Shown in pieces: positions 38,614 through 61,135 of a stretch of 64,000 nucleotides of DNA (position 1 is its first letter; every line of letters starts with the position of its first letter). Source of the DNA: a virus. The notes beneath the pieces are model-generated. The model was not told the origin of the DNA. It did no database searches and saw nothing but the letters and a program-made list of their open reading frames with translations. The stretch spans positions 45,029 through 109,028 of IMG/VR virus record IMGVR_UViG_3300021963_007714. One strand, 5' to 3'. Position numbers and translations under genes: made by a program.

Positions 38614-38678
38614 TTTTAGTAATACACTAGGGGTACCTTATAGGGCCCCACTTATCTTACTTTTTAAGGAGAAATTTT

Positions 38679-39110: not shown

Positions 39111-39115
39111 TCAAT

Positions 39116-39132
39116 AGGGGGCTTGTCCCCCT
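39116..39132 (+). terminator. GC-rich hairpin between hsp20 and clpS, probable terminator
   Basis: AGGGGG-CTTGT-CCCCCT: six perfect pairs, followed by only a short T-containing tract. It is placed just before the late promoter for clpS. Confidence 0.6.
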
Positions 39133-39140
39133 TCATTAAC

Positions 39141-39148
39141 TATAAATA
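39141..39148 (+). promoter_or_regulatory. T4-type late promoter (TATAAATA), leaderless position
   Basis: Perfect octamer with exactly 5 nt to the clpS ATG at 39154. No ribosome binding site is present. Confidence 0.82.
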
Positions 39149-39153
39149 TTATT

Positions 39154-39456
39154 ATGTCAATAACTGATGTTATACTAGAAACCACTACCTCTGATAAAAT
39201 CAAAGTCCCAAAAAAATATAAAGTTATATTTTGTAATGACAATGTAACACCTGTTGAATTTGTGGTAGCAGTGTTAATGAGTGTGTTCAAACATGAACAA
39301 AATGCTGCCATGGAAATCACACTAAAGGTCCATAATGAAGGCAGTGCTGTAGCGGGTATCTATAGCTACGAAATAGCAGAACAAAAAAGTATTGATGTAA
39401 TGGCATTAGCTCGATCAAATGGATATCCCCTACAGGTCAAAGTAGAGGCAGAATGA
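39154..39456 (+). CDS. clpS: ClpS-like protease adaptor
   Basis: 100 aa. The core YKVIFCNDNVTPVEFVVAVL, then EITLKVHNEGSAVAGIYSYE and the C-terminal AEQKSIDVMALARSNGYPLQ, match ClpS, which delivers N-degron substrates to ClpAP. Phage ClpS homologs are known in cyanophages. It could redirect host Clp proteolysis. The start lies at the predicted +1 of its late promoter. It overlaps the heme oxygenase gene by 4 nt. Confidence 0.88.
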   Translation: MSITDVILETTTSDKIKVPKKYKVIFCNDNVTPVEFVVAVLMSVFKHEQNAAMEITLKVHNEGSAVAGIYSYEIAEQKSIDVMALARSNGYPLQVKVEAE

Positions 39457-39998
39457 ATCTCAAAGAACAAACAGCAGACAAACATAGGCAGGCAGAATCT
39501 ACCAAATTTATGAAGGCAGTGTTCGCACAAACATTGCCAATATCTTTATGGGTAGATTGGACCAAACAAAAAAGTTTTTTCTACAACAAAATTGAATACT
39601 ATGCTGGACATTTAGGACTGCTAGAAGATATAGAAGATATAAGACGAAGTTATTATATTTTACAAGATTACAATGTAATGAACAGTGGAAATCCATCTTT
39701 ACATGCCATTAGAAATACTGTATTAGAATACGGAGATTATATAGATCAAATAGGCAGCGATGGCAGTAAAATTCTTGCGCATTTATACACTTGGCACATG
39801 GGTGACATGTTTGGAGGACAAATGATTAAAAAAATTATACCCGGTTCTCATCTTGCTCTTGAATTTGAAAATCCTCAAGCCTTAATGAAAAATTTAAGAT
39901 CTAAATTATCAGATGATCTCGGTAGAGAGGCTAATACTGCTTTTGATTGGGCAATTAAAATGATGAGGGACTATGATGGAGATTTGGAACAAAATTGA
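39453..39998 (+). CDS. ho1: Heme oxygenase
   Basis: 181 aa. It opens heme to biliverdin, CO and iron. The proximal heme ligand is probably His11 in EQTADKHRQAES, and the distal helix reads LYTWHMGDMFGGQMIKK, matching GDxxGGQ of HO1-type enzymes. Slightly shorter than plant or cyanobacterial HO1 (about 240 aa). Its 3' end overlaps the bilin reductase gene by 26 nt, so the two are coupled and likely act in sequence. It may also free iron from host heme. Confidence 0.88.
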   Translation: MNLKEQTADKHRQAESTKFMKAVFAQTLPISLWVDWTKQKSFFYNKIEYYAGHLGLLEDIEDIRRSYYILQDYNVMNSGNPSLHAIRNTVLEYGDYIDQIGSDGSKILAHLYTWHMGDMFGGQMIKKIIPGSHLALEFENPQALMKNLRSKLSDDLGREANTAFDWAIKMMRDYDGDLEQN

Positions 39999-40644
39999 AG
40001 AACTAGCAGAATACCTAGAACAGCAATTTAATAACACAGGTGATGCTATAGAAGGAAAACTTAATGAAGACTACGATTGGGAAAATAATCTTTGGTCCAG
40101 TCCAAGATATCGTAGAGCTCACATTGAAATAGTAGACAAGCGTGATTCGCATGGAATCTACATTTTACATTCTACTATATTCCCACATTATAATGATCCT
40201 AGCCCTATTTGGGGCTTTGATGCTATATGCGGACGTAATAAAATTACAGGTGCTTTTCATGATTTTAGCGCAGCCGGGGATAGAAATCATGACATGATGT
40301 TATGGTTTGAACAGCATTCGTCACCTTTACAATGGACTAAACCTAGAACTTTACCCGACTGGGCAAAACAAATCTTCAGTCCTTCTATGATAGCCGCGGG
40401 TAATATAAGCGATGAGCAAGAAATTGAATTACTTTGTAAGATAGCTAGGGAATCCTTAGACTATTATTTGGCTAATGTGGGATTCACCCAGACCTCTGGC
40501 GCAGATTTTCATATGGCACAAAATCGCTATTGTTACTATCAAAAACAAAATCCGCAAGTGATAAAAAGCATGGTAGCAATGGGTGTTCCTGAACCTACTA
40601 TCTTAAAATTTGTAGACGAGATACTATTCCCAGAAGCCGCATAA
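39973..40644 (+). CDS. Ferredoxin-dependent bilin reductase (PcyX/PcyA-PebS family)
   Basis: 223 aa (the ATG at 39976 has a better spacing to GAGGGA and is an alternative). RRAHIEIVDKR, HSTIFPHYNDPSPIWGFDAI with the candidate catalytic Asp, CGRNKITGAFHDFS, then ADFHMAQNRYCYYQKQNPQV and FVDEILFPE follow the order of FDBR motifs. The family reduces biliverdin with ferredoxin electrons to coloured bilins. Phage members include PebS in cyanophages and PcyX in oceanic phages linked to non-cyanobacterial hosts; the context here (no photosynthesis genes) favours a PcyX-like assignment. The product is not predictable from sequence alone. Confidence 0.82.
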   Translation: MMEIWNKIEELAEYLEQQFNNTGDAIEGKLNEDYDWENNLWSSPRYRRAHIEIVDKRDSHGIYILHSTIFPHYNDPSPIWGFDAICGRNKITGAFHDFSAAGDRNHDMMLWFEQHSSPLQWTKPRTLPDWAKQIFSPSMIAAGNISDEQEIELLCKIARESLDYYLANVGFTQTSGADFHMAQNRYCYYQKQNPQVIKSMVAMGVPEPTILKFVDEILFPEAA

Positions 40645-40647
40645 ATA
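40640..40647 (+). promoter_or_regulatory. T4-type late promoter variant (CATAAATA)
   Basis: CATAAATA overlapping the FDBR stop, 7 nt before the ATG at 40655. It predicts a nearly leaderless mRNA. Confidence 0.65.
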
Positions 40648-40654
40648 TTTTATT

Positions 40655-41776
40655 ATGCGATTTAGTGAATTTTCAAAACCTTTAGAGGAAGGTGGCAAAT
40701 CTAGTGGAGTTCGATATAATAGCGAAATTGCTATGTTATGTGCTCTTGCTGGAGCGGACCCTGAATCCTTCAACCCTTCTAAACCTGAGCTTACTTTACC
40801 TGCTCAAATACTTTCCGATCCCAATGGCACATATAATTCAATTAAAAAGTTATTGGCTCCAAATTTTGATCAGGGATTGTTTCTTAGGTGGCATCAAATT
40901 GGCACAGCATATGCTGAACTTATTAATAAAAAATTGGCAGAAAACGGCCAATCAGTTGAACAATTTACATGGGCGGGTGGAAAAAATAAGGCAGATAACG
41001 CTGCCGATGTAGGATTTGAAGGCACAGATGTCGCCGGTATCAGTCTAAAAGCAGAAGGCGGTATTACTCTAGCTAATCTTACTCCTAAAGTATTAGGACT
41101 AACTCCCGAACGAGGCAATGATATTTTTTATCAATACGCCCAAGAAGAATTTAAAAAAATGAAACAAGACATTTTTAATGATGTTCTTGCTCTAGCACAA
41201 AGTAAACCAGGAGAAGTCATTGCTCCTATTTCAGACAAATACACTATAGTTTTTGATCCAAATACACAGAAGTTTACTTGTAAAGGAAAAACAAGTTTAA
41301 CAGCAGATGCTAGCACAATAATAGCATCTTCGGGTAAAAATGCCAAATGGCAACGTGTATTTGGTGATTGGTTTCAGGCTAATTGGCAATCAAAGAAAGC
41401 CTATGCTACACCTCTGTTTTCAAAGATCGCTACAGTGTTTGAATCCATAATTGAAAACACACTGAAACAAAATGCTAGTCTTACTTCTATGCTGAGATTT
41501 TCACAACAACCATATTTTTACGCAAGTGTTAATGGATTGTATTATGTACCAAGCATAACTGAAGTAGAAGATCTACAACTTATGGGATTGAAATACGGAG
41601 CACCAGACGGTACCAGTCAACTTTTTATAGCACAAATCGGACGTCCTGATAGTAATGAATTTGCAGAATTAGATTTATATATAAGATATGCCAACGGTAT
41701 GTTTGAAAGCAATCCCACTGTTAGGGTCCAAACCCTACGTAACCCACAATTCATCAGTTGGGAAAAACTAAATTAA
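40655..41776 (+). CDS. Capsid-targeted protein, possible PD-(D/E)XK-type nuclease
   Basis: 373 aa. The N-terminus MRFSEFSKPLEEGG has the form of a capsid-targeting sequence with an LEE|G cleavage site. Around residues 125-145, GFEGTDVAGISLKAEGGITL resembles the D-x(n)-xSLK core found in restriction-type PD-(D/E)XK nucleases. The rest is mixed alpha/beta with no other known domain. If both readings hold, this would be a nuclease carried in the head and injected with the DNA. A structural internal protein is the main alternative. Confidence 0.55.
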   Translation: MRFSEFSKPLEEGGKSSGVRYNSEIAMLCALAGADPESFNPSKPELTLPAQILSDPNGTYNSIKKLLAPNFDQGLFLRWHQIGTAYAELINKKLAENGQSVEQFTWAGGKNKADNAADVGFEGTDVAGISLKAEGGITLANLTPKVLGLTPERGNDIFYQYAQEEFKKMKQDIFNDVLALAQSKPGEVIAPISDKYTIVFDPNTQKFTCKGKTSLTADASTIIASSGKNAKWQRVFGDWFQANWQSKKAYATPLFSKIATVFESIIENTLKQNASLTSMLRFSQQPYFYASVNGLYYVPSITEVEDLQLMGLKYGAPDGTSQLFIAQIGRPDSNEFAELDLYIRYANGMFESNPTVRVQTLRNPQFISWEKLN

Positions 41777-41790
41777 ACTTTAAGTAAGTA

Positions 41791-41798
41791 TATAAATA
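41791..41798 (+). promoter_or_regulatory. T4-type late promoter (TATAAATA), leaderless position
   Basis: Perfect octamer with exactly 5 nt to the ATG at 41804. Confidence 0.82.
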
Positions 41799-41803
41799 GT
41801 GAT

Positions 41804-42172
41804 ATGGAAATATTACTATTAATGTTTCTGCTACAGGCCAAACATTGGTACGCAGACTTTTTTATTCAAACTTACGATCAAACAGTTAAAAAGGGTCTAT
41901 ACGGTGATCCTGTTGGTATAAGCCATAGCCTAGATCATATGTTATGGACACTGATAGCCCTACTGTTATTCAGTTTAATTCACCCTGTTGAACTTGTAAT
42001 GATTTTAACAATTAGTATATTAGAAGGGTTCGCTCACTATCATATTGATTGGTTTAAGGTAAAATATGGTATAAAAGATATGTACAAGCCTAGATTTTGG
42101 AGAGAATTTGGCGCTGATCAAATGGCTCACCATATCTGTTACTTGTTTATTATTTGGTACTTATTACTATGA
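41804..42172 (+). CDS. DUF3307-like membrane protein
   Basis: 122 aa with several hydrophobic helices (about 1-12, 45-80, 105-122). The sequence LLQAKHWYADFFIQTYDQTV, SHSLDHMLWTLIALLLFS and FAHYHIDWFK, then GADQMAHHICYLF, follows the DUF3307 pattern of conserved His and Asp residues in membrane helices. Function unknown. It starts at a late promoter +1 and ends in an ATGA overlap with the LamG-like adhesin. Confidence 0.72.
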   Translation: MEILLLMFLLQAKHWYADFFIQTYDQTVKKGLYGDPVGISHSLDHMLWTLIALLLFSLIHPVELVMILTISILEGFAHYHIDWFKVKYGIKDMYKPRFWREFGADQMAHHICYLFIIWYLLL

Positions 42173-43572
42173 TAATTTCAGGTGGTATGACCCTAGTAGG
42201 TGGTGTTACATACTTTGACAGTGCAGGTTATACAAGTTTTTTATATCCCCCTAGTCCGGATACCTATGTAGCATTTAGACAAGAAATCGCCTATGCGTAT
42301 GGATATTCCGGTAGTACTGCTGGCCATCTGTCTACAGCTACCCAAAATGTAGTTTATGATATAGGGACAGGTAATTTTACAATAGAAGCAAATGTTTATC
42401 TAACAACAACACCTGGCGCCGGTTCAATTCGTGGTATTTTAAACAAAGGTGCTATTGGACCTAGTGGTTGGACATTTGGAGTTAATGATACCTTACGACT
42501 TTACATGTATGGTTCTAGTCCTACATTTGGAGGACCAACTAGCACACAGATTATAGCATTGAATAGTTGGACATATGTTGCCGTGGTGAGAGAAGGAACT
42601 GGTGCTAATCAAACTAAATTTTATATAAATGGATACTTAGCTGGAACTGGAACATGGGCCCACCCTATGACAAATACTGACCCTCTACGAGTGGGTACGT
42701 TCGCTGCTTCAGGTACTTATGTAAATTGGATAGGAGCAATTACAGATCTTAGATGGTCAAATTTTGCTAGAACAATAGAAGTACAGGGATGTACTCCTAA
42801 GCCGTTTGATTCAGGAACTATACTAGTAACAGGTAATACTTCAACCCACGCATACGCACTTAGTGGTAATACATGGACAAATTGGCTCCTACAGAGTTCT
42901 CCTAGTCCCACTGTTAGTAGCAATCCTGTAAGCGTAGATGTTGTCACTAATCAATTAAACATTGGATTTGGTGACTATACTATTGAATGCTGGATATATA
43001 GAACAAGTGGAGGTACTATGGGAATTTACAGCCATGGACTAAATGATTTAAGCCAAGGGTATCATATCTATATTAATGCATCTAATAGGTTAGTAGTTAC
43101 CCATGATGCAATTATTGTGTCATCCGGTAGCATTGACTTAAACAATAATACTTGGTATCACATAGTTGTACAACGTTCGGGACAAACTTCACTGAAGACA
43201 TTTGTGAATGGACAGCAAGATAATTTCCAATCAGTTGGTGCTTTCTCAATAAACTTCGCCTACACATATCAGAATAGAATTGGTTATTATAAATCAGGTG
43301 GTTGGATTTCTAGTCCATTCCGAGGATATATAAGTAATTTTAGAATATCTAAAGGAACTAGATATCCAACTGGTAGCGGACAAGGATTTACTAGGCCCAC
43401 TGAACCATTTAGATGGGACAGCAGTACTTTAATTCTTACTGCCAACAAACAATCATTATCTTATACATTTGATGGGAGCCTCGATCAATATTGGACTTCT
43501 GCTGCAGCAGGTTCGACTACACCGACAACAACTATACGATCTCCGGAAGTATCAAATTTTAATCCATTTTAG
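42169..43572 (+). CDS. Adhesin-type virion protein with two LamG/ConA-like domains
   Basis: 467 aa from ATG 42169 (ATGA overlap). The N-terminal MIISGGMTLVGGV peptide is shared in form with two other proteins at 48921 and 50159. Two jelly-roll domains follow: about 65-215 (FTIEANVYLTTTPGAGS, WTYVAVVREGTG, FYINGYLAGTGTW) and about 265-445 (YTIECWIYRTSGG, WYHIVVQRSGQ, FVNGQQDNFQSVG, YISNFRISKGTRY). LamG-like domains bind glycans or proteins, so a tail-tip or fibre-tip receptor-binding role is inferred. Confidence 0.75.
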   Translation: MIISGGMTLVGGVTYFDSAGYTSFLYPPSPDTYVAFRQEIAYAYGYSGSTAGHLSTATQNVVYDIGTGNFTIEANVYLTTTPGAGSIRGILNKGAIGPSGWTFGVNDTLRLYMYGSSPTFGGPTSTQIIALNSWTYVAVVREGTGANQTKFYINGYLAGTGTWAHPMTNTDPLRVGTFAASGTYVNWIGAITDLRWSNFARTIEVQGCTPKPFDSGTILVTGNTSTHAYALSGNTWTNWLLQSSPSPTVSSNPVSVDVVTNQLNIGFGDYTIECWIYRTSGGTMGIYSHGLNDLSQGYHIYINASNRLVVTHDAIIVSSGSIDLNNNTWYHIVVQRSGQTSLKTFVNGQQDNFQSVGAFSINFAYTYQNRIGYYKSGGWISSPFRGYISNFRISKGTRYPTGSGQGFTRPTEPFRWDSSTLILTANKQSLSYTFDGSLDQYWTSAAAGSTTPTTTIRSPEVSNFNPF

Positions 43573-43601
43573 TAGATACACTTATTAAAACGTTCTGTTC
43601 C

Positions 43602-43609
43602 TATAAATA
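43602..43609 (+). promoter_or_regulatory. T4-type late promoter (TATAAATA) of the curli-like cluster
   Basis: Perfect octamer 20 nt before csgF, followed by TTAGGAGCG as ribosome binding site. It appears to drive the whole csgF-to-curlin-repeat block, since no other promoter or terminator is seen until 48.9 kb. Confidence 0.82.
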
Positions 43610-43629
43610 TATGTAACTTAGGAGCGAAT

Positions 43630-44103
43630 ATGAAGAAGATTGCGTTAGCATTGTTTTTACTACCATTGCTGGCTCATGCGGAACTGGTTCAACAATTCAA
43701 AAGTCCAAGTTTTAATGGACAAAATTGGAGCAGCCATGTTCTTACTATAGACAGTATAGAAAAAGCACGTAAAGATAATATAGAAAGTCAAAAGAAATCA
43801 GAAGAGGCTAAATTGTTAGCCGAAGCACAGAATACACCATTGGCTCGCTTTATGAGCCTATTTACCAGCCAAGTATATGCGCAATTAGCCAGCCAACTTA
43901 GCACAAATCTATTCCAAAATAAATGTCAAGGTGCAGACGGATTAGCGATTCCAGGATGTGTAAACCCTTCAAGCGGAGTGTTTAGTTTAGACGGCAATAC
44001 TATTACCTGGGTAAAAACAGACAAAGATGTTACTTTAACAGTGGTTGATAAGGCAGGCACCGTGACTGTTGTTAAAGTTCCTATAGCAAGTTTTGGATTC
44101 TAA
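43630..44103 (+). CDS. csgF: CsgF-like curli nucleation/assembly protein
   Basis: 157 aa. A Sec signal peptide (MKKIALALFLLPLLAHA) is followed by ELVQQFKSPSFNGQNW, the conserved CsgF start that inserts in the CsgG pore (E. coli: FQFRNPNFGG). The C-terminal domain has ITWVKTDKDVTLTVVDKAGT, like the end of CsgF. A Lys/Glu/Ser-rich insert makes it slightly longer than the E. coli protein. CsgF anchors the nucleator at the outer membrane. It shares the GGAGCGAATATGAAGAA initiation sequence with the curlin gene. Confidence 0.85.
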   Translation: MKKIALALFLLPLLAHAELVQQFKSPSFNGQNWSSHVLTIDSIEKARKDNIESQKKSEEAKLLAEAQNTPLARFMSLFTSQVYAQLASQLSTNLFQNKCQGADGLAIPGCVNPSSGVFSLDGNTITWVKTDKDVTLTVVDKAGTVTVVKVPIASFGF

Positions 44104-44104
44104 T

Positions 44105-45016
44105 ATGAAGAACACGTTAAAATTATCAATATTAGCAGCAAGTATAGCCTTAGGTGGTTGTAATGCCATGCGTCCTGTTTTAGAGGCTAAATTAGATACT
44201 CCTCCCAGAGTTAGCCAAAACATGCTGAAAGACCTAAATACCATTCCAGCACCAATGGGTCCTCCAATCACTGTAGCGGTATACAACTTTAGAGACCTAA
44301 CAGGACAACGTAAGCCAAGTAATACATTGAGCCTTTTCAGTTCAGCGGTAACACAAGGTGCAGAAAGTTATCTAATTAAGACATTGGCAGAAGCAGGCAA
44401 TCGTCAATGGTTTACTGTGGTAGAACGTGTGGGCTTAGATAACCTGCTTAAAGAGCGTCAAATGATCAAGCAGACTCGTGAGATCTATGATGGCGAAAAA
44501 GCCAAAATGCTACCCCCAATGACGCTGGCAGGAGTTATCATTGAGGGCGGTATTATAGATTATAATTCAAACACACTGACAGGTGGTACCGGAGCACGTT
44601 GGTTGGGCATAGGGCCATATACTCAATACACACAAGATTTGGTCGTAATTAGTCTAAGACTGGTCAGTGTTCAAACAGGTGAAGTATTAACCAGCGTCAC
44701 TATTGAAAAGAACTTACTATCTACAGCAGAAGGTGTAACTACATTTAAATTCTTTAACACTGCCACAAGAGCCTTTGAATTAGACTCAAGTCAGACTTTT
44801 AATGAACCAGGCAACTATGCTCTGCGTTCGGCCATAGAAGCGGGTGTAATAGAACTTATTCGTCAAGGAGAAAGCCAAGGACTGTGGAAATACAAGGAGC
44901 AAGTGAAACATGACGTGGTTCCGACACCGCAGCCCAAAACTGCCCCCCAGTCTACTGAATCAGCCCCCAATCAAGGATTGGTCGATTCCAGCGGCCAGCC
45001 AATTAAAACAAACTAA
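44105..45016 (+). CDS. csgG: CsgG-like outer-membrane curli secretion channel
   Basis: 303 aa from ATG 44105, 1 nt after csgF. A lipoprotein signal ends in ALGGC (Cys19). The body follows CsgG: VAVYNFRDLTGQRKPSNTLS, SSAVTQGAESYLIKTLAEAG, WFTVVERVGLDNLLKERQMI, then GARWLGIGPYTQYTQDLVVI and VSLRLVSVQTGEVL. CsgG forms a nonameric pore for unfolded curlins. The C-terminus has an extra Pro/Gln/Thr-rich tail. It could export the adjacent curlin proteins, or open the outer membrane late in infection. Confidence 0.95.
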   Translation: MKNTLKLSILAASIALGGCNAMRPVLEAKLDTPPRVSQNMLKDLNTIPAPMGPPITVAVYNFRDLTGQRKPSNTLSLFSSAVTQGAESYLIKTLAEAGNRQWFTVVERVGLDNLLKERQMIKQTREIYDGEKAKMLPPMTLAGVIIEGGIIDYNSNTLTGGTGARWLGIGPYTQYTQDLVVISLRLVSVQTGEVLTSVTIEKNLLSTAEGVTTFKFFNTATRAFELDSSQTFNEPGNYALRSAIEAGVIELIRQGESQGLWKYKEQVKHDVVPTPQPKTAPQSTESAPNQGLVDSSGQPIKTN

Positions 45017-45033
45017 ACAAGGACGGAGCGAAT

Positions 45034-45900
45034 ATGAAGAAAACATTACTAACACTGCTGATGATGGCAGCATTTCCGGTAGCAGCACAAACCACAGTGG
45101 CAGCACCAACTCCAACAACTCCCGTTGATCCTACAGTAGGGGTCATGGCAGGCACCGCCACAGCACTGACACAGAGTGCTACCAATCGTGTGTTCATTGA
45201 TCAAGACGGTGAGCGTCCCAATGTCAGCATTACACAGACAGGCAGTGGTAATACTGCTGGCAGTGATTCAACCTATAGCAAAATTATAACAGGTATTGTA
45301 GATAGACTAAACGCAGGCGGTGTGCGTCAATATACAGTAAACAGTGCTATATACCTACGTGGTGATGATCATAACATTATCTTAAACCAAGTGGGCAATA
45401 ATAACACCATTGCTATGAAGGCAATAAGCCCAGATGTAGCAGCACAGGGAGTAGATATTACTATTCAACAATTAGGCAACAGTAACTTTGCTGATGTTCT
45501 ATGTGGATCTGGATCAAGTTCAGCAGGAACAGCATTAACAGGCTGTAAAGATGCTACATTAAATTGGAAGTTTACAGGTAACAGCAATGCCATACAGTTT
45601 CGTGGCACAGGTGACGATCTAAACAGTCAGATCACAGTGACCAGTGGTAATAGCAATGAATTTAATATTGACTCAGTGGGTAATAAGCACAATCAAACTA
45701 TAACCGTGGCAGGTAATTTCAATGTGTTTAATATCAGTCAAACTGGCAATAGTGCTTATGGTAGCAGCATATGGATGGATGTAAACGGAGCCAGCAATAG
45801 ATTCGCTATCAGCCAAGCAGGCACACAAGATAATGTAGTTAAAATTACCACAGTGGGCAGCAGTGGAGTTTGGAATATAATTCAAAGAACAACACCATAA
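45034..45900 (+). CDS. Curlin-repeat amyloid protein (CsgA/CsgB-like)
   Basis: 288 aa. The signal peptide MKKTLLTLLMMAAFPVAAQ precedes about seven degenerate curlin repeats with the SxxQxGxxN theme: VSITQTGSGN, IILNQVGNNN, ITIQQLGNSN, FNIDSVGNKHN, FNISQTGNS, FAISQAGTQDN and a last WNIIQR. These stack as a beta-solenoid amyloid in CsgA. It is longer than E. coli CsgA (151 aa) and the repeats are less regular. It is a probable substrate of the neighbouring CsgG. Confidence 0.88.
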   Translation: MKKTLLTLLMMAAFPVAAQTTVAAPTPTTPVDPTVGVMAGTATALTQSATNRVFIDQDGERPNVSITQTGSGNTAGSDSTYSKIITGIVDRLNAGGVRQYTVNSAIYLRGDDHNIILNQVGNNNTIAMKAISPDVAAQGVDITIQQLGNSNFADVLCGSGSSSAGTALTGCKDATLNWKFTGNSNAIQFRGTGDDLNSQITVTSGNSNEFNIDSVGNKHNQTITVAGNFNVFNISQTGNSAYGSSIWMDVNGASNRFAISQAGTQDNVVKITTVGSSGVWNIIQRTTP

Positions 45901-45909
45901 GGAGTTGTC

Positions 45910-47064
45910 GTGAGATATTTCTGTTTAAGTTTATTGTTTTGCGCCACCACGGCCTGGGCTGACATAGGGTCAGTTACAGAGGTCACAGGCAGTGGCACAA
46001 TAAAACGTGGTAAAGATTCTGTGACAATAGCCAAGGGAACGGTGATTCAAACCAATGATAAGATTGAAACAAAGAATGGCAAGGTTAAAATTACTTTTAA
46101 AGACAATACTACAGTATCAGTCACGGAACACAGTAGTTTGGTTATTGATGATTTTGTTTATGATCCTAAAAATGCTCAGGGAGGAAAACTTGGTCTAAAG
46201 GCCACTGGTGGTGCTGTGCGCTATGTTAGTGGTGCCATAGCCGGTGCCAACCCTAATGCTGTGAAAATCAATACACCTACTGCGGCAATTGCTGTGCGTG
46301 GCACTGACTTTGTCATGGCAGTAAACGAAGTTGGAGCATCCACTGTGATCCTCATGCCCAGTTGTGAAGATAATGTAGGACCTAATGTTAGAGGTGCCAT
46401 ATGTGGTAGTGGAGCCATTGATGTAGAAAGTGGCCCTAACCTTGTAACAATGAATCGTCCCTTTCAAGCCACTATGGTAGAAACAGCGGGCGCACCTCCT
46501 ACACCCCCCATGACTATTAATATATTTGGCACACCAGTAGGAACTAATTTGTTAGTGAGCCCACCGCCTACTATGAGTGGTGCGCCGTTGGTAGCAGCAG
46601 CAAGAGCCGCAGCGGCAGCAGCAGGTGTTCCAGGAGCGAAAAAAGATGACTCAAAGAAAGAGAGCAAAGAAGAGAGCAAAGATGGTGGTGATAACTCAGA
46701 ACAAGTCGCAAGTAACCAGGCGGCAGACGCTAAAAAGGCTCAAGAAGCCCCTGCTTCAGACACTAAAACCACAGTAGCACAAGCAGAAGTTAAAGAAGAA
46801 ATTCCTGTCACTGCTGCCAAAGAAGAAACAAAGTCAGAAGATCCAGAATGGCTACGTAAGATTTATAAAGATAAATCAGAGACCAAACAGGTAGGTTGGG
46901 CTGTAGAATCAGTTAGCCAAAATGGTCGTAATGTAGCACAGGTTTCATTACAGATGAATACTCAGGTGCAGGTCAGTGTCACACAGGACATGCTGAACGT
47001 GAGCAATAACTTCTCAAGTGGTCGTCCTCAGGGACAGATTATAATTAATCAAACATACAGATGA
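45910..47064 (+). CDS. Secreted FecR-domain protein of curli-like cluster
   Basis: 384 aa from a GTG at 45910 with AAGGAG upstream. A signal peptide (MRYFCLSLLFCATTAWA) is followed by a FecR domain, about residues 19-140 (IGSVTEVTGSGTIKRGKDSV, GTVIQTNDKIETKNGKVKIT, TPTAAIAVRGTDFVM). A Pro/Ala-rich stretch and a Lys/Glu/Ser-rich low-complexity region come next, then a C-terminal QVSLQMNTQVQVSVTQDMLN segment. FecR-domain proteins occur next to secreted fibre systems in bacteria. A periplasmic or surface scaffold for the curlin export unit is inferred. Confidence 0.8.
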   Translation: MRYFCLSLLFCATTAWADIGSVTEVTGSGTIKRGKDSVTIAKGTVIQTNDKIETKNGKVKITFKDNTTVSVTEHSSLVIDDFVYDPKNAQGGKLGLKATGGAVRYVSGAIAGANPNAVKINTPTAAIAVRGTDFVMAVNEVGASTVILMPSCEDNVGPNVRGAICGSGAIDVESGPNLVTMNRPFQATMVETAGAPPTPPMTINIFGTPVGTNLLVSPPPTMSGAPLVAAARAAAAAAGVPGAKKDDSKKESKEESKDGGDNSEQVASNQAADAKKAQEAPASDTKTTVAQAEVKEEIPVTAAKEETKSEDPEWLRKIYKDKSETKQVGWAVESVSQNGRNVAQVSLQMNTQVQVSVTQDMLNVSNNFSSGRPQGQIIINQTYR

Positions 47065-48902
47065 AATACGGATATCGTTGGACTTCGGGTTTTGGCATTG
47101 TTATACTGGTGCTGTTCCTCTCCTTGGTTTATTTTTGGGCTGAACCTGCTCGTGCTGATGTCACTGATCTACAACTACCGGTAGGTAAAGTATTCGACAG
47201 TCAATGGAATGTAGGAGCCTGCACCCAATCAAGCGGAACCTGCTCAGTAAGCGGCCTTGTATCAAGTCAACTTTACAGTCCATCAGCAGGATGGAAAAGT
47301 TTTACCTCAGGTATGACTGTGCGTTTTAGTTATAATAACGGCAGTGTAGCAGGCAATCCCATACAGTTAGAATTATGGAACAGTAACAATACTCTTAACA
47401 CTGTGATGATTCCTTATGGTAGATTCATTGCTTTTGAAAATGGTGCCAATGAAGGTCGTCAATATATGTTTGTGGATAACACCACTTGGTATGGATATTA
47501 TATTAACCTACAAGCATCTACATCTACCACTAGTTCAACTTGGAATCATGGTGGCACTGCCACTACAGCACAATATCAAGCACTAACACAGGCCATGGTC
47601 ACTGCGCCACCGCCACCTGCTATGCCCACAAACAATGTAGCACAGACCAGTGGGTCAAGCCTATATCCCTATACCAGAGGAACCAGTAATCGTGGATTTA
47701 CAATACAATGGTGGGACTGCTGTGGCAGCGGTGGTTGGAATATGTCAAATGCTACTTGGAGTCAAGGCGGCACAGGCAGCGGCTTTTATGCTTGGGTCAC
47801 AGGATATCTCCGCTGGCCAGGTGCTCAAGACGGTGTAAGTAGAACCATATGGTTTAGAACAGGTTGGGATGACAAGCACAAATTGTTTATCAATGGCACA
47901 CAGATAACCAATGGTGATTGCTGTGCCTATGCCTATGGATCATATACTGCTAAACCTGGTGAATTTGTATATATTCATTTTTATACAGATAACAGTGGCG
48001 GTGGACCTACCAGTTGGGAAATAGCCTGGGATCCACAGGGTGACGGCACCTATGAAGTTATAGGTGGCGAAAGCGTAGGATTAGAATCAGGTGGTGGTTC
48101 AAGTTGGTATTCAAGCACAGAGACTGCCGCACAGATCAATCAAAAAAATTCAGATCGTGCTCGATTAGCAGCATTGGCACAGGGTAACAAATTGTATATC
48201 GCACAAAGCGGTAGTTACGCAGATGTTGATATTATACAAGAAGGTTCAACAAACTATATACAAGGACGTGGTGGAGTAGGCGATGCTCAACTCATAGGCA
48301 ATTATAATACACTGAGAATAAGACAAGGTGATGGATTAGGATCAGGTAAGAACCTAATCGAGTTTGATGTCAATGGAACAAGCAATACTGTGACACTGCT
48401 ACAAGGATGGAACGGAACTTGGCCCTCTGTCAGCAAGGATGGCATTGAAAGTGGCGGACACTACAGTGACCTTAAACTGACAGGCAACAATAACACAGTG
48501 ACATTTCAACAGGCCAACACAGGAGCGGCCAATTCCGGACACTATAACAGATCAGAGATCACAGGTGACACTAATACAGTGTTAGTAAGACAATTATGGG
48601 GCAACGCAGCCTATCACACTTTCTTCAGTAACATAACAGGTAATAGCAACAATGTAGATGTATTACAGGCAGGCGCAGCAGGCAAGTATATGGATCTTAC
48701 CTTGACAGGAAATGGACATACTGTAGTCGCGACCCAGGATGGTGCAGGTAGTCATAGAGCCACTATTAACCTAAGTAGAGTGCTGGGGTCATCCACATTA
48801 AATCTTACGCAGCAAGGGACAGTGGCACAACAATATAACATTACACAGGCCTGCGCTAATCTAAGTGGTTGCTCAGTGACAGTAACACAGGGCACACCAT
48901 AA
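47061..48902 (+). CDS. Large secreted protein with C-terminal curlin repeats
   Basis: 613 aa, ATGA overlap with the FecR gene. A signal anchor lies at 10-35 (FGIVILVLFLSLVYFWA). Residues about 40-350 form beta-rich, Trp- and Gly-rich domains resembling PA14-like or carbohydrate-binding modules (WFRTGWDDKHKLFINGTQIT, FVYIHFYTDNSGGG). From about 375, curlin-like repeats follow (KLYIAQSGSYADVDIIQEGS, LTGNNNTVTFQQANTG, ITGNSNNVDVLQAG, LNLTQQGTVAQQYNITQ). It looks like an adhesive head joined to an amyloid-forming tail, perhaps the nucleator or tip of the fibre. Confidence 0.82.
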   Translation: MKYGYRWTSGFGIVILVLFLSLVYFWAEPARADVTDLQLPVGKVFDSQWNVGACTQSSGTCSVSGLVSSQLYSPSAGWKSFTSGMTVRFSYNNGSVAGNPIQLELWNSNNTLNTVMIPYGRFIAFENGANEGRQYMFVDNTTWYGYYINLQASTSTTSSTWNHGGTATTAQYQALTQAMVTAPPPPAMPTNNVAQTSGSSLYPYTRGTSNRGFTIQWWDCCGSGGWNMSNATWSQGGTGSGFYAWVTGYLRWPGAQDGVSRTIWFRTGWDDKHKLFINGTQITNGDCCAYAYGSYTAKPGEFVYIHFYTDNSGGGPTSWEIAWDPQGDGTYEVIGGESVGLESGGGSSWYSSTETAAQINQKNSDRARLAALAQGNKLYIAQSGSYADVDIIQEGSTNYIQGRGGVGDAQLIGNYNTLRIRQGDGLGSGKNLIEFDVNGTSNTVTLLQGWNGTWPSVSKDGIESGGHYSDLKLTGNNNTVTFQQANTGAANSGHYNRSEITGDTNTVLVRQLWGNAAYHTFFSNITGNSNNVDVLQAGAAGKYMDLTLTGNGHTVVATQDGAGSHRATINLSRVLGSSTLNLTQQGTVAQQYNITQACANLSGCSVTVTQGTP

Positions 48903-48908
48903 ACTATA

Positions 48909-48916
48909 TATAAATA
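48909..48916 (+). promoter_or_regulatory. T4-type late promoter (TATAAATA), leaderless position
   Basis: Perfect octamer 4 nt before the ATG at 48921. No leader can exist if T4 spacing holds. Confidence 0.8.
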
Positions 48917-48920
48917 GAAG

Positions 48921-50039
48921 ATGGCTTTATTAATTTCTGGAGGTGTAAGAATTATAGGCAGTACAATAAGTGCGTTACCCGTAACACCACCACCTCTGAA
49001 TATTGGAGAAAGTTTCGGTGGAGGTTATTACGCCGGGTTGTATTCAGCAAGTGGAGACGGAAATCCTACTCACTTTTTAGTTGTATCTCCAGGGTCATCT
49101 GAAACTACTTTATCTTGGAAGTCGTCTCTTACAAATACACCGGGTACAAGTAGTTTATTCGATGGTAGTGCTAACACTGCCGCTATGACAGATGCTTCTC
49201 ATCCTGCGGCAGAATACTGTGGTAATTTAACAACTGGAGGTTATAGTGATTGGTATCTACCTTCTAGATATGAGTTGGCTATAATATATTCAAACACAAG
49301 GGCATGGCCTGGCGATAATGTTACAACGTCCGGTATTAACCCTTACTCGGTATTACCCCGTACTTCTAATTACTCTCTTTATGTACCTGGAGAAGCCACA
49401 TATGCAACTGTATTTAGAAACGTAACAGCACAATTTAATGGAGGTCTTTATTGGACGAGCTCTTCATCTGCCTCACCTACTGCTTGGTTTATCAATACTA
49501 CTGATGGAACTGAAAGCGTTGATTTTAAAGATCAAAATTATACTGTTAGAGCTATAAGAAAAGTACCTTACTATACACAACAAACTGGAGTATCTTACGG
49601 ACCGTATAGATACTGGAGAATGTATATAACCAAGGTAAGGGAAAGTTCAAATCTATCTGATTGTCAAATGGCTGAATTCAAGTTTCAAGTAGATGGTATA
49701 GATAGAGATCTTTACGGAGCTACCTTAACAAATCCTGGAGGTGTGGTAACCGGTCAGGAAGAGGTTTATAGATTAATTGATAATTCAATGTTTTATAAAT
49801 TTTATAATGCAGGCCATTATACTAATGGGACCACTGATATAAGGTTTGATTTTGGGACTCCTGTAAGTTTTACCGGTTATCGATGGGCAACAGCTAATGA
49901 TGTAATATCAAGAGATCCAGAATCCTGGACTATACAGGCAGGTGCTACAACAGCAAGTTATACCACTATTCACACTGTAACAGGATATACAGCAACCACC
50001 GAACGAAACACTTGGCAAAATCCATGGACGTTCACCTAA
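48921..50039 (+). CDS. Adhesin-type virion protein with DUF1566-like and discoidin-like domains
   Basis: 372 aa. The N-terminus MALLISGGVRIIGS shares the ISGG-type anchor peptide with the proteins at 42169 and 50159. Residues about 30-210 follow DUF1566 (FGGGYYAGLYS, WYLPSRYELAIIYSNTRAW, GGLYWTSSS, YTVRAIRKV). Residues about 225-372 resemble an F5/8 type C (discoidin) domain (YRYWRMYITKVRESSNLSDC, QMAEFKF, GYRWATANDVISRDPESWTI). Both are binding modules. A tip adhesin is the likely role. Confidence 0.72.
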   Translation: MALLISGGVRIIGSTISALPVTPPPLNIGESFGGGYYAGLYSASGDGNPTHFLVVSPGSSETTLSWKSSLTNTPGTSSLFDGSANTAAMTDASHPAAEYCGNLTTGGYSDWYLPSRYELAIIYSNTRAWPGDNVTTSGINPYSVLPRTSNYSLYVPGEATYATVFRNVTAQFNGGLYWTSSSSASPTAWFINTTDGTESVDFKDQNYTVRAIRKVPYYTQQTGVSYGPYRYWRMYITKVRESSNLSDCQMAEFKFQVDGIDRDLYGATLTNPGGVVTGQEEVYRLIDNSMFYKFYNAGHYTNGTTDIRFDFGTPVSFTGYRWATANDVISRDPESWTIQAGATTASYTTIHTVTGYTATTERNTWQNPWTFT

Positions 50040-50052
50040 TAGATTAAATACA

Positions 50053-50133
50053 AACATAGGATCCTTACAGCAAACTATTTGGCCTTCTTAATCGCTACGT
50101 GTAGCGTGTAGATCTCCCAAAACGGATCCTGTT
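50053..50133. other. Nested inverted-repeat element in the spacer between adhesin genes
   Basis: Four colinear complementary pairs nest inside the spacer: AACA/TGTT (50053-56 with 50130-133), GGATCC/GGATCC (59-64 with 124-129), TTTGG/CCAAA (78-82 with 117-121) and CGCTA/TAGCG closing a CGTG loop (93-97 with 102-106). No T-run follows, so it is not an ordinary terminator. It ends where a TATAAATT late-promoter-like octamer begins. It could be a structured RNA end or processing site. Confidence 0.45.
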
Positions 50134-50140
50134 ATAAATT
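50133..50140 (+). promoter_or_regulatory. Late-promoter-like TATAAATT
   Basis: One mismatch at the last base of the late octamer, 18 nt before the ATG at 50159. The next gene has no ribosome binding site. Confidence 0.5.
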
Positions 50141-50158
50141 TTTAGCAATAATAACTCT

Positions 50159-51076
50159 ATGCAAATTACAGGCGGAATATTACTCGGTCAAGGCTTTAAC
50201 ATAAGTCCACCATTTTTTTACACAGTAGATGTGCTTATTTTAGGTGGAGGAGGAGGTGGAGGCGCCGGAAGTAATTGGCAAAACAATGCCAATGGCGGAG
50301 GTGGAGGCGCCGGCGGATACAGGTATATATCCAGTGTAACAGTACAATCTGGAACTGTGTATCCCATGATAGTAGGTCAGGGTGGTATAGGTTCGATTAC
50401 CACAGGAGGGGTAGGTGACATCAATGCCACTTATACTGAAGGAACTAGCGGAACAACAAGTACAGCCTTTGGATATGCTGCTGCAGGTGGTGGCCTTGGT
50501 GGTTCATATACTCCACTAAATGGTATTACCTCAGGTAGGAACGGAGGCTCTGGTGGAGGAGGTGGCGGAGCAGGTGGAGGTCAGCCTACAAGTGGCGGAA
50601 CAGGAAATATACCCGTTACTGTACCAAGCCAAGGAAATAATGGCGGTAGTAATTTTACCAATGATGCTAGCGGAGCCAGCGGTGGAGGAGGTGGTGCTAG
50701 CGCAGCAGGTGCTTCGGGTGCGGCAAATGTAGGAGGTAATGGAGGAGCAGGCAGATATCCGGATATTTGGTATGCTTCAACCTCTGGTGTTTTTGTCTGC
50801 GGTGGAGGAGGTGGTTCTGGATCAACCAATGGCACAGGTGGAGTAGGTGGCGGTGGCAATGCATCTAGAACACCAGGAGCTAACTGTGCCGGCACAGATG
50901 GTCTAGGTGGAGGCGGAGGTGGAACCGGTCTAGGATCAGGCAGAGGAGGTAGTGGAGGCAGAGGTAGAATTTTGGTTAGGTACCCTACTAATATTAGAGC
51001 TAGCGGAGGTACTATTGTTATATATAATGGGTATGTATACCATGACTTTACCTCATCAGATTTTTTTCAAGCTTAA
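50159..51076 (+). CDS. Glycine-rich adhesin-type virion protein
   Basis: 305 aa. The N-terminus MQITGGILLGQGFNIS carries the shared ITGG/ISGG anchor peptide. From about residue 22, VDVLILGGGGGGGAGSNWQ, then long runs of poly-Gly with GGAGGY and GAGG motifs, match the glycine-rich (polyglycine sandwich) domains of phage adhesins such as T-even gp38-like tips. It ends in GRGGSGGRGRILVRYPTN and a short C-terminal domain. Receptor recognition is the probable role. Antisense open frames here are composition artefacts. Confidence 0.78.
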   Translation: MQITGGILLGQGFNISPPFFYTVDVLILGGGGGGGAGSNWQNNANGGGGGAGGYRYISSVTVQSGTVYPMIVGQGGIGSITTGGVGDINATYTEGTSGTTSTAFGYAAAGGGLGGSYTPLNGITSGRNGGSGGGGGGAGGGQPTSGGTGNIPVTVPSQGNNGGSNFTNDASGASGGGGGASAAGASGAANVGGNGGAGRYPDIWYASTSGVFVCGGGGGSGSTNGTGGVGGGGNASRTPGANCAGTDGLGGGGGGTGLGSGRGGSGGRGRILVRYPTNIRASGGTIVIYNGYVYHDFTSSDFFQA

Positions 51077-51079
51077 AAA

Positions 51080-51376
51080 ATGAACAAAATTATATTAGGA
51101 TTTTTATGTTTTCCAATTACTGTTTGGGCACAACAAACTGCCTATAAAGCCGTGATGTGCGCAGATACTCAATCTGTCATTACTGCTCTTACTGGAAAGG
51201 ATTATAAAGAAAAACCATTCTGGATGGGCGTTGATCAAAAGGAACACACCTACAGCATATTCTATAACAAAGAAACCTCAGGCTGGACCATAATTGAGTT
51301 TAAAGGTAAGACTGCCTGTATATTGGGCGCAGGTGAAGAAAGCCAGTTAAGTCAAGAATTAAGTAGCAAACATTAA
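51080..51376 (+). CDS. Small secreted protein, unknown function
   Basis: 98 aa, 3 nt after the adhesin stop. The signal peptide MNKIILGFLCFPITVWAQQ is followed by a small domain with two Cys (VMCADTQSVITAL and KTACILGAGEES). It is periplasmic or secreted. Small exported proteins of this type occur in T4-like marine phages. No function can be assigned. Confidence 0.6.
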   Translation: MNKIILGFLCFPITVWAQQTAYKAVMCADTQSVITALTGKDYKEKPFWMGVDQKEHTYSIFYNKETSGWTIIEFKGKTACILGAGEESQLSQELSSKH

Positions 51377-51406
51377 AAAAACATAGATTTTATTTTTCAA
51401 ATAGTC

Positions 51407-51435
51407 TTGGCTAATGATATTAAATAGTGTATAAT
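51407..51435 (+). promoter_or_regulatory. Sigma70-type promoter
   Basis: TTGGCT (51407-51412), 17-bp spacer, TATAAT (51430-51435), 32 nt before the ATG at 51468. Confidence 0.8.
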
Positions 51436-51467
51436 CGTTGTTTAGGACAAATACACAAGGACACACT

Positions 51468-51626
51468 ATGAAGTATTTAATTGCTACGTTTCTAGCCTTT
51501 GGGCTACCAATTCTAATCGGCATTGGTTTATATTCTATCAAAGATCAGCACCATGCTGTAACCAATGTATGTAATGAACAATTTTACCCAGATCTCTGCG
51601 GTAAAAAGACCGACAAAGAATCTTAA
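51468..51626 (+). CDS. Small membrane protein
   Basis: 52 aa. The ATG at 51468 follows AAGGA; an in-frame ATG at 51438 lies too close to the -10 box. One N-terminal membrane helix (YLIATFLAFGLPILIGIGLY) precedes a short tail with two Cys (NVCNEQFYPDLCG), probably periplasmic. Function unknown. Confidence 0.6.
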   Translation: MKYLIATFLAFGLPILIGIGLYSIKDQHHAVTNVCNEQFYPDLCGKKTDKES

Positions 51627-51648
51627 TTTTTAACAGGAGACACAGACC

Positions 51649-52023
51649 ATGTTTGGACTTATTAAATTCCTCATTGCTCTATATCGTGCTTTTGTAGCAC
51701 TACTTGATCCCAATCGTAATGCTCTAAAAGATGCTCCACCACAGATCAAATATATCACCAGTGTGTTACTGGCCAGTTTTTGGGCAGTGGCATTTAGTCT
51801 GTGGGCAGGAGAACTCTATTTCATTGGCTATAATGTAATTGGACATGTAGCGGTAGTAAGTATGGCATTTGCCACTTGGTTGGTATTCCGTCACTTTAGA
51901 AAGACCTATACTAAAAGGTCGGAATACGATCTACTACGTGATCCTAACCGCTTGCCCAAGTGTTACGAACTAACTGATGAAGAGAGACTACAGGCCGCAC
52001 AGAAAGCAAGTTTTCAAAATTAA
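51649..52023 (+). CDS. Two-span membrane protein, unknown function
   Basis: 124 aa behind CAGGAGAC. Hydrophobic segments lie at about 1-18, 38-60 and 65-85 (VLLASFWAVAFSLWAGELYF, NVIGHVAVVSMAFATWLVF). A basic cytoplasmic tail follows. It is co-directional with the small membrane protein before it and the polymerase gene after it. Not recognised. Confidence 0.58.
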   Translation: MFGLIKFLIALYRAFVALLDPNRNALKDAPPQIKYITSVLLASFWAVAFSLWAGELYFIGYNVIGHVAVVSMAFATWLVFRHFRKTYTKRSEYDLLRDPNRLPKCYELTDEERLQAAQKASFQN

Positions 52024-52029
52024 ACCAAA

Positions 52030-52103
52030 TCCCTGTATCTCGGCATTAAATATTCCATATTATGGCAACTATAAAGGCACAACATGGAATCAAGATACAG
52101 GGA
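52030..52103 (+). promoter_or_regulatory. Long hairpin enclosing the start codon of the polymerase gene
   Basis: TCCCTGTATCT (52030-52040) is perfectly complementary to AGATACAGGGA (52093-52103). Nested inside, ATTCCAT (52052-52058) pairs with ATGGAAT (52084-52090), which contains the ATG at 52084. The AAGG Shine-Dalgarno-like sequence lies in the apical loop. The start codon would be hidden when folded, suggesting translational control. Confidence 0.6.
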
Positions 52104-56317: not shown

Positions 56318-56339
56318 ACTAGTAGCAAGGAGATCAATG

Positions 56340-56426: not shown

Positions 56427-56458
56427 TCTCAATCTAATTAAACTCAAAAGGAAATTAA

Positions 56459-59080: not shown

Positions 59081-61135
59081 ATGAGAAAGATATTATTAAA
59101 TCCATATTGGGCCCTATTAACCCTCGTAGCCGTGTTAGCACTGAGATTTTTTGATCCCAGTTTTGTTGAGTCGGTTAGACTACGCTATTTTGATCAACTT
59201 ATAACCAGTCAACCAAAGGTTGAAGTTCCTGTTCATACTGTTAACATTGATGAACAGACTTTGGAAAAATTAGGTCAATGGCCCTTTCCAAGAGGCGACT
59301 ATGCTAAAATGATCAACGATCTATACCAGCGTAACGCAGGACTTGTTGTATTCAATGTGTTAATGCCCGAATTTGATCGTTTCAAAGAGGACAAAGAATT
59401 AGCACAATATCTGAAGTCTCACCCAGTTGTTCTTCCTATATTAGGGCATACCAAAGACCGTAATGCCACACAGCCACCGCATACACAGGTAGTTGGACAA
59501 GATCCACAGGGCAAGGTGGTTGAATATCCAGGAGTTATAAGTTCAGTGGCAATAATAACAGGTCAGGCCACAGGTTATGGGGTAGTTAATACCTTTCCGG
59601 AAATAGATGGTGTTGTTCGTCGTATGCCCCTGGTAATTGCCAGCCAAGGTAAGTTACATCCAGCATTGGCTTTAGAAACACTGCGAGTAGCAGCACAAGA
59701 TCCTCGTGTTCAAATAAAGATAGGAGACATTGGTGTAGAGGCTTTGCGTGTGCCCAAGATAGGCAAGATACCGACAGATCCATTGAGTCGTATATGGATT
59801 GATTGGTCAGCACAGCCTAAAGAACATAGTTTTATGTCGTTGCCCGATGACTTCAAAGGTGAAATAGTCATTGTGGGTTTATCAGCAGCGGGCTTGGCTA
59901 ATCCTGTGGCCACAGCCAGAGGAGAAGTATGGCCTCACTTTTTACAGGGCACGGTGTTAGGAACACTAACTACACAGAGCCACATACAGAGACCCGACTG
60001 GGCAGATGCCGCCGAATTAGGTGCTATTGCTGTATTTGGCATTTTAATTATATTCTTATCAAGGTGGGTCTATGTCGGTATCGGATTTTATCTTATTCTT
60101 GCTGGTTCATGCGTGGCAGGCAGCATGTACGGGTATAGTAATTATAGGTGGCTTATTGATGCTACTTTGCCTACCCTTAGTATTCTTCTTGTAGCACTAC
60201 ATGCCTATACAGTGAAGTTTATTTCAGAATTCCTACAGAAACAGCAGATACGCAAACAGTTTCAAAGTTATCTATCACCAGATCTTGTGGCCAAACTGAT
60301 AAAAGATCCTAGCCTACTTAAACTGGGCGGTGAAGAAAAAGAACTCTCAATCATGTTTACAGATGTGCGCGGCTTTACATCAATATCAGAACACTATGGC
60401 AAAGATGTTCAAGGTCTTACAAAAATCATGAATCGTTATATGACTGCCATGACACGCAAGATATTAGAAAATCATGGCACATTAGACAAGTATATTGGTG
60501 ATGCTCAAATGGCGTTTTGGAATGCTCCATTAGATGAAACTATTCACTGTAAGGAAAGCGTCAAGGCAGCACTGGAAATGTTAGAAGATCTAAAGGTATT
60601 CAATGATGAAATTACCAAAGAAGGAATCCCTGCGTTTGGCATGGGCATTGGCATTAACACTGGGGTTGTTGTTGTCGGCAATATGGGCAGTGAGCAACGC
60701 TTTGACTATACTTGTTTGGGTGACGCAGTTAATTTGGCCAGCCGCTTAGAAGGTCAGAGCAAGAACTATGGCGTCCTATTGGTCATTGGTCCTGTAACAG
60801 AAAGCAGATTAGAGGGCACAGCATTTAGCCTACCTCTAGATTGTATTGCGGTCAAGGGCAAACACGAAGGTGTAAACATTTTTACAGCGTTTCATAATCC
60901 ACCTGAAAATCTCAAGGCACAATGGCTAGCAGACAAAGAACGTCATGTTGAGATGTTGGGTTATTATCGTGCTCAACAATGGAACAAGGCCTTGAAAGCA
61001 GTAGAAGCACTTAAAGGAAAATTCAATGGACAAATGGATCACTACTATGAACTATGGACCGAACGCATTCATGAAATGGCCAGCGCTGGATTACCCGCAG
61101 ATTGGGATGGCGTCTTTAGAGCAACCAGCAAGTGA
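59081..61135 (+). CDS. Membrane class III adenylate cyclase with CHASE2 sensor
   Basis: 684 aa. A membrane anchor (about 8-24) is followed by a CHASE2 extracytoplasmic domain to about 290 (LRYFDQLITSQPKVEVPVHT, VNIDEQTLEKLGQWPFPRGD). Three membrane helices occupy about 305-385, then a class III cyclase domain about 415-610. Catalytic residues visible: metal Asp428 (FTDVRGFTS) and Asp474, purine-selecting Lys470 (DKYIGDAQ) with Thr544, and transition-state Asn551 and Arg555 (GDAVNLASRLEG). The set fits ATP-to-cAMP conversion. A late promoter precedes it. CHASE2 cyclases are common in bacteria but not expected in phages, so recent transfer from a host is likely. Confidence 0.9.
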   Translation: MRKILLNPYWALLTLVAVLALRFFDPSFVESVRLRYFDQLITSQPKVEVPVHTVNIDEQTLEKLGQWPFPRGDYAKMINDLYQRNAGLVVFNVLMPEFDRFKEDKELAQYLKSHPVVLPILGHTKDRNATQPPHTQVVGQDPQGKVVEYPGVISSVAIITGQATGYGVVNTFPEIDGVVRRMPLVIASQGKLHPALALETLRVAAQDPRVQIKIGDIGVEALRVPKIGKIPTDPLSRIWIDWSAQPKEHSFMSLPDDFKGEIVIVGLSAAGLANPVATARGEVWPHFLQGTVLGTLTTQSHIQRPDWADAAELGAIAVFGILIIFLSRWVYVGIGFYLILAGSCVAGSMYGYSNYRWLIDATLPTLSILLVALHAYTVKFISEFLQKQQIRKQFQSYLSPDLVAKLIKDPSLLKLGGEEKELSIMFTDVRGFTSISEHYGKDVQGLTKIMNRYMTAMTRKILENHGTLDKYIGDAQMAFWNAPLDETIHCKESVKAALEMLEDLKVFNDEITKEGIPAFGMGIGINTGVVVVGNMGSEQRFDYTCLGDAVNLASRLEGQSKNYGVLLVIGPVTESRLEGTAFSLPLDCIAVKGKHEGVNIFTAFHNPPENLKAQWLADKERHVEMLGYYRAQQWNKALKAVEALKGKFNGQMDHYYELWTERIHEMASAGLPADWDGVFRATSK

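Follow-up and report, generated by a model that had tools for sequence, protein, structure and literature searches.

The csgF-csgG-curlin cluster and its conservation

The stretch of 64,000 nucleotides analyzed here (the window) comprises bases 45029-109028 of the 109,028-base virus record IMGVR_UViG_3300021963_007714 from IMG/VR, belongs to a T4-like water phage and carries a set of genes resembling those of bacterial curli. An original prediction, made from the letters alone, had described a five-gene curli-like export and amyloid cluster behind a phage late promoter. Five + strand open reading frames (ORFs) were confirmed at 43630-48902, namely csgF, csgG, a first curlin-repeat gene (Cur1), a FecR-domain gene and a second curlin-repeat gene (Cur2), with neighboring genes 1-17 bases apart or slightly overlapping. 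Pfam matches and strand motifs establish the cluster as real. A sixth member, a CHASE2-adenylate cyclase, lies apart at 59081-61135 and had been overlooked. Two copies of TATAAATA (43602 and 48909) flank the five genes on either side. The features are as follows.

43602..43609, + strand: TATAAATA, T4-late-type promoter motif upstream of csgF
43630..44103, + strand: csgF, 157 amino acids (aa); Sec signal, N-terminal F-K-[NSD]-P-x-F CsgG-binding-type motif, Pfam CsgF
44105..45016, + strand: csgG, 303 aa, lipoprotein outer-membrane pore; Pfam CsgG, PDB CsgG, lipobox Cys19
45034..45900, + strand: Cur1, 288 aa, secreted curlin-repeat protein (CsgA/B-like); Curlin_rpt, repeat motifs
45910..47064, + strand: FecR-domain protein, 384 aa, GTG start; Sec signal, no anti-sigma domain, Pfam FecR
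47061..48902, + strand: Cur2, 613 aa, secreted and adhesin-like; N-terminal PA14-like head region, C-terminal curlin-type repeats, terminal Cys pair
48909..48916, + strand: second TATAAATA, directly past Cur2, at the start of the next unit
59081..61135, + strand: CHASE2-adenylate/guanylate cyclase, 684 aa, sixth gene of the phage curli module, set apart from the other five

The five-gene order had been proposed as something to look for in related phages, and it recurs: csgF, csgG, curlin and FecR are contiguous and in the same order in 46 of 46 phage loci (44 from IMG/VR plus HTVC008M and Melnitz), with a second curlin protein after FecR in most of those where the contig extends far enough. 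Comparison of the window with its near relatives (loci L005 and L006) gave ratios of nonsynonymous to synonymous substitution (dN/dS) of 0.03-0.13, by which all five genes are under purifying selection. The guanine plus cytosine content is 43% in the cluster and 39% across the record. All five products carry a Sec signal or lipobox, and none was detected in the products of three flanking tail-fiber-like genes; the five proteins thus appear built for the cell envelope rather than for the virion. As originally noted, csgE is missing: PF10627 had no match in any of 12 genomes tested, this record included, under conditions in which the E. coli control was detected. csgC and csgD were not seen either, in searches that used no models of their own. 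Overall, the Pfam matches, repeats and export signals sustain the claim of a phage-borne curli-type system with a pore, a coupling factor and two curlin-repeat substrates, amyloid formation and export being predicted from sequence.

Export pore, curlin repeats and exchangeable heads

CsgG matches its Pfam family at E=2e-49 and CsgG in the PDB at E=4e-48, and its lipobox Cys19 is invariant in the alignment. We place its start at ATG 44105, the overlapping start at which the mechanical ORF opens (TTG 44093) being judged unlikely. CsgF matches Pfam CsgF at E=8e-9; used alone in a PDB search it returned chance matches only, and a profile of 23 phage and bacterial CsgF sequences retrieves E. coli CsgF (6l7a). 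P26 and F28 are among the six columns invariant over these 23 sequences, and the profile places the invariant P and F of [NSD]-P-x-F on FRNPNF of the E. coli protein, whose N-terminal 27 residues line the CsgG channel (PMC7304575). The conserved motif, together with the role of this segment in E. coli, argues that phage CsgF still docks on CsgG, and its retention speaks against the idea of a pore that has lost its partner.

Cur1 matches Pfam Curlin_rpt at E=2e-6 and, far under the cut-off of that model, the NCBIfam CsgB-like family (1.5e-8); its repeat motifs exceed all shuffles, and its dN/dS is 0.03-0.06. The Cur2 of the window has no Pfam match of its own. Seven strand motifs of the form Nx[ILVFMT]x[ILVFMTQS]xQ fall within its last 253 residues, where chance would give 0.4; none of 2,000 shuffles reached seven (maximum 3). 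The Curlin_rpt cut-off is cleared by its orthologs in HTVC008M, Melnitz, L010, L011, L023 and L039. Across 24 aligned Cur2 proteins, a conserved curlin-type tail closes in a cysteine-containing segment and is preceded by N-terminal parts that vary in kind and length. Signal sequences are present on Cur1 and Cur2 in the 18-19 relatives inspected.

The Pfam heads found before the curlin repeats of Cur2 are PA14 in HTVC008M and L033, and F5/8 type C in L007, L023, L024 and L047; significant matches to one or other model were obtained in the ortholog loci L002, L033, L007, L023, L047 and L024. By alignment, the window head falls in the PA14-type group. The AlphaFold model, with a mean predicted local distance difference test score (pLDDT) of 60, gave a weak Foldseek match to PA14 sugar-binding domains (Marinomonas primoryensis adhesin; probability 0.99, E 0.04-0.08). 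We predict that the head is probably sugar-binding. Heads also move: the L008 head is 80-84% identical to those of L029, L032 and L047, whose CsgG proteins are only 46-48% identical to that of L008, and L011 and L024 share a 269-aa head (74% identical) beside CsgG proteins at 49%. From such similar heads on modules with distant CsgG, we conclude that Cur2 heads are exchanged between distant modules.

Scans with two heads retrieved 86 loci, to which two further loci were added. FecR and a curlin tail are both present in 65 of the 88, some of the others being cut by contig ends. In approximately 17 loci, one head type sits on phage proteins of ~730-1250 aa outside any curli module. These carriers bear signal sequences, and an outer-membrane-protein-type C-terminus closes all 14 that are complete; no known autotransporter barrel was matched in them in Pfam, NCBIfam or the PDB. 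Because the head occurs on two different types of exported protein, it most plausibly acts at the surface of the infected cell, where it would be displayed by two routes. Large exported head carriers were recorded at L206, L208, L209, L211, L214, L215, L226-L228, L232-L234, L241 and L242. We also considered whether carriers of the YNSIATAYV head replace curli, a mutual exclusion that was rejected, as 6 of 11 contigs with non-curli carriers hold csgG as well.

The putative FecR-CHASE2 pair, the late motif and neighboring genes

The FecR-domain protein matches Pfam FecR at E=6e-10, and in 27 of 27 aligned sequences the domain follows directly after the signal sequence. No anti-sigma domain was found, either as a Pfam family in the window protein or in the 27-sequence alignment, and no extracytoplasmic function sigma factor gene was seen among the window genes scanned with Pfam and PHROGs, small ORFs having been scanned in part. 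The best NCBIfam likeness, far under the cut-off, is to a surface adhesin. The AlphaFold model (pLDDT 66) matches the surface signaling domain of PupR (6ovk, E 5e-4) as well as an adhesin cell-surface anchoring domain (5ix9; 61 columns, 1.0 A, E 7e-3). The C-terminus ends suggestively in I-x-I-x-Q, but its likeness to a curlin repeat reached no better than P~0.05 in four shuffle tests, and we do not claim it as one.

The cyclase at 59081-61135 matches CHASE2 (2e-38) and Guanylate_cyc (8e-19) in Pfam. It contains signature residues of class III cyclases in the segments FTDVRGFT and KYIGDAQMAFW, the aspartates of which we take to be metal-binding, and in NLASR. A CHASE2 cyclase is encoded on all 17 csgG-bearing phage contigs tested, and full-length matches among 50,697 phage records came only from six HTVC008M/Melnitz records, all with csgG. 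The window gene lies ~10 kb past Cur2, beyond tail-like genes, a DNA polymerase III alpha-like gene, phoX and pstS; by its presence on all the csgG contigs tested, it is the cyclase of the published phage curli module. Directly after it, at 61263-62492 on the + strand, comes a second gene with a class III cyclase domain (Guanylate_cyc 8e-9), for a soluble protein of 409 aa. We sampled 32 CHASE2 loci, nearly all from Caulobacterales, the order of the Caulobacteraceae genomes discussed below. Of the six cyclases that best match the phage cyclase, five have a FecR gene next to them, and three of these five pairs have no csg gene on the fetched 4 kb. In Burkholderia, a FecR-CHASE2 kinase pair controls biofilm (PMC5192318). 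The replacement of the anti-sigma domain by a signal sequence, the adjacency to CHASE2 cyclases and the Burkholderia pair make it more likely that FecR serves the CHASE2 cyclase as its outside partner than that it acts as an iron regulator, the make-up of which it lacks; this bears on a published statement.

The T4-late-type promoter motif of the original prediction is supported. It is present at 43602; the window-wide number of TATAAATA copies is chance-like (8 found, 8.7 expected), and it is the position rather than the total that departs from chance. Each of the seven + strand copies (17866, 19438, 30874, 39141, 41791, 43602 and 48909) is followed by an ORF start at a distance of a few to some two dozen bases. 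Of 32 related phage loci, 25 have a TAAATA core no more than 60 nt ahead of csgF, where 3.5 would be expected. This evidence, which is of motifs and not a transcript measurement, supports late expression of the curli cluster. Separately, an ATG lies exactly 5 nt after TATAAATA at 11 of 37 sites of this phage group in a non-redundant set and at 22 of 95 in a larger one, opening ORFs that are mostly of at least 100 aa; control octamers gave 2/111 and 2/157, but ATATAATA gave 7/110. Many late genes of the group may be read from leaderless mRNAs, and a limited literature search turned up no published report of leaderless late starts after a T4-late-type motif.

The surroundings hold further genes. 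On the + strand, 36718-38613 encodes a full-length Hsp70 (DnaK; Pfam 6e-259), 52084-53748 a DNA polymerase III alpha-like protein of 554 aa, and 54110-57472, between the curli genes and the cyclase, the alkaline phosphatase PhoX and the phosphate-binding protein PstS. Record bases 37494-53672, ending at window position 8644, form one uninterrupted frame of 5,392 aa. The fiber-like genes at 42154-43572, 48921-50039 and 50159-51076, without detected signal peptide, all begin with a region bearing the motif I-[ST]-G-G, which may be a shared virion anchor.

Proposed function of the module and its known relatives

In this context, we consider it fairly probable that the phage carries a type VIII (curli) secretion module with which the infected cell displays adhesive curlin fibers late in infection. 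Late transcription from 43602 would yield five exported proteins. CsgG would form the outer-membrane pore, and CsgF would cap it by means of an N-terminal loop. The pore would export Cur1 as the fiber subunit together with Cur2, whose curlin-repeat tail would join or nucleate the fiber and expose a head of sugar-binding type. The secreted FecR protein, in the periplasm or at the surface, would partner the CHASE2 sensor cyclase (59081) and tie the state of the fiber to cyclic AMP (cAMP). By binding glycans on neighboring cells or particles, the head would help progeny freed at lysis to find nearby hosts, with the blocking of competing phages as a possible side effect. The heads point to infected cells sticking to other cells or surfaces, and the gluing role raised in the original prediction gains support from their exchangeable, sugar-binding type. 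More tentatively, and with a little less than even confidence, we put forward the fuller scheme of amyloid fibers with interchangeable glycan-binding heads, joined in some phages by a related head on an outer-membrane-barrel-like carrier, and under FecR-CHASE2 control by cAMP. If true, the infected cell would possess a phage-encoded, fast-exchanging adhesion system controlled by cAMP through FecR and CHASE2, akin to tail-fiber exchange but acting between cells.

Several points weigh against these proposals. Melnitz-infected cells in culture were not seen to clump (PMC9004378). The absence of csgE leaves gating and specificity unexplained. The PA14 likeness of the window head comes from alignment and a weak fold match to a model of low pLDDT, with no Pfam match to the head, and for a barrel in the non-curli head proteins the C-terminal signature is the sole support. 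The accounts of phage members in PMC7029224, PMC9004378 and PMC9599517 report no amyloid formation and no binding of sugars.

The role of phage curli has been debated since 2020, with sibling capture, a lysis pore and an import channel all proposed. For Melnitz, in which csgA and csgB were held to be missing, a pinholin or secretin role was put forward (PMC9004378, 2022). A CsgG pore repurposed for lysis timing would open late and depolarize or weaken the envelope, CsgF having drifted to another role, and the T4-late-type motif upstream of csgF would suit it. That proposal builds on the lack of csgA and csgB. However, curlin-repeat proteins are annotated on either side of FecR in the Melnitz record, and two such proteins, one of them scored by Curlin_rpt, stand right behind csgG; the pore is thus not substrate-less, which bears on the published statement. 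Since, in addition, the CsgG-binding motif of CsgF is kept in all the phages and two substrates, FecR and cyclase are retained with the pore under purifying selection, we find this explanation quite unlikely, and opening of the outer membrane at lysis becomes the least favored of the roles first suggested. In PMC7029224 and PMC9599517, CsgG is suggested to let in nutrients or cofactors as an ungated pore. This would accord with the lack of a csgE gate and with phoX and pstS between Cur2 and the cyclase. Yet it leaves the curlin proteins, heads and CsgF unexplained, and the phosphate genes lie outside the conserved module, so that we hold it to be very unlikely.

Superinfection exclusion, also suggested in PMC9599517, would have a fiber coat or bound matrix mask the receptors of the infected cell from competing phages. 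The export signals do imply surface display by infected cells, but a late-promoter motif is late for exclusion and a passive coat needs no exchangeable heads of sugar-binding type; we regard it as unlikely. That Cur1 and Cur2 are instead virion (tail-fiber) proteins is scarcely credible: their neighbors at 42154-43572, 48921-50039 and 50159-51076 resemble tail or fiber genes, but signal sequences mark Cur1 and Cur2 throughout the relatives inspected and none was detected in those neighbors, and both travel with csgFG across phage lineages. Turning back to adhesion by infected cells, exchangeable heads common to another type of surface-bound phage protein make that hypothesis directly testable.

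The cluster is not novel as such. A pelagimyophage curli module was described in 2020 (PMC7029224), and CsgA/B-like proteins, FecR and cyclase were reported in podo- and myophages and found to be expressed at sea (PMC9599517, 2022). Gene order and adenylate cyclase are thus already known from pelagimyophages, HTVC008M, Melnitz and pelagipodophages. What goes beyond these studies and PMC9004378 is the exchangeable Cur2 heads, the kept CsgF motif, and a FecR without anti-sigma part paired with a CHASE2 cyclase. The window shares with the published module the order csgF-csgG-curlin-FecR-curlin, the CHASE2-type cyclase and the lack of a detected csgE, and with pelagimyophages a T4-like background. 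It differs in the remote cyclase, located behind tail-like, phoX and pstS genes. Unlike the podophage form (PMC9599517), it has no histidine kinase among the two genes examined upstream of csgF, which encode a 122-aa membrane protein (phrog_2470) and a Laminin_G_3 protein. Its CsgG is 43% identical to those of HTVC008M and Melnitz and falls in a separate, well-supported phage clade.

In a tree of 54 CsgG proteins, the phages group with operons from two Caulobacteraceae metagenome-assembled genomes (100/99), apart from the other alphaproteobacteria sampled. The exception is L053, a contig of 3 kb assigned to a Candidatus Pelagibacter bin, which carries the module and groups with HTVC008M; it is most likely a phage contig inside a bacterial bin. 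The two Caulobacteraceae operons (L051 7489-13546 and L052 7510-13530, csgF-csgG-curlin-curlin-FecR-cyclase) are the closest bacterial relatives of the phage module and lie in ordinary bacterial surroundings. Like the window, they combine csgF, csgG, curlins, FecR and a CHASE2 cyclase; unlike it, both curlins precede FecR, no head domain was found, and FecR directly precedes and overlaps the cyclase. The csgBAC-csgDEFG system of E. coli has in common with the window the CsgG pore, the N-terminal coupling motif of CsgF and curlin repeats, whereas the window lacks csgE, adds FecR and cyclase and has a large head on Cur2. From FecR/PupR iron-signaling regulators, which share the FecR domain and the fold of the PupR surface signaling domain, the window protein differs in having a signal sequence where they have a cytoplasmic anti-sigma domain, with no sigma-factor gene seen nearby. 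Finally, the Burkholderia operon (PMC5192318), which has a kinase instead of a cyclase, an added LysM domain and no curli genes, resembles the window in placing a secreted FecR protein beside a CHASE2 sensor, there in the control of biofilm.

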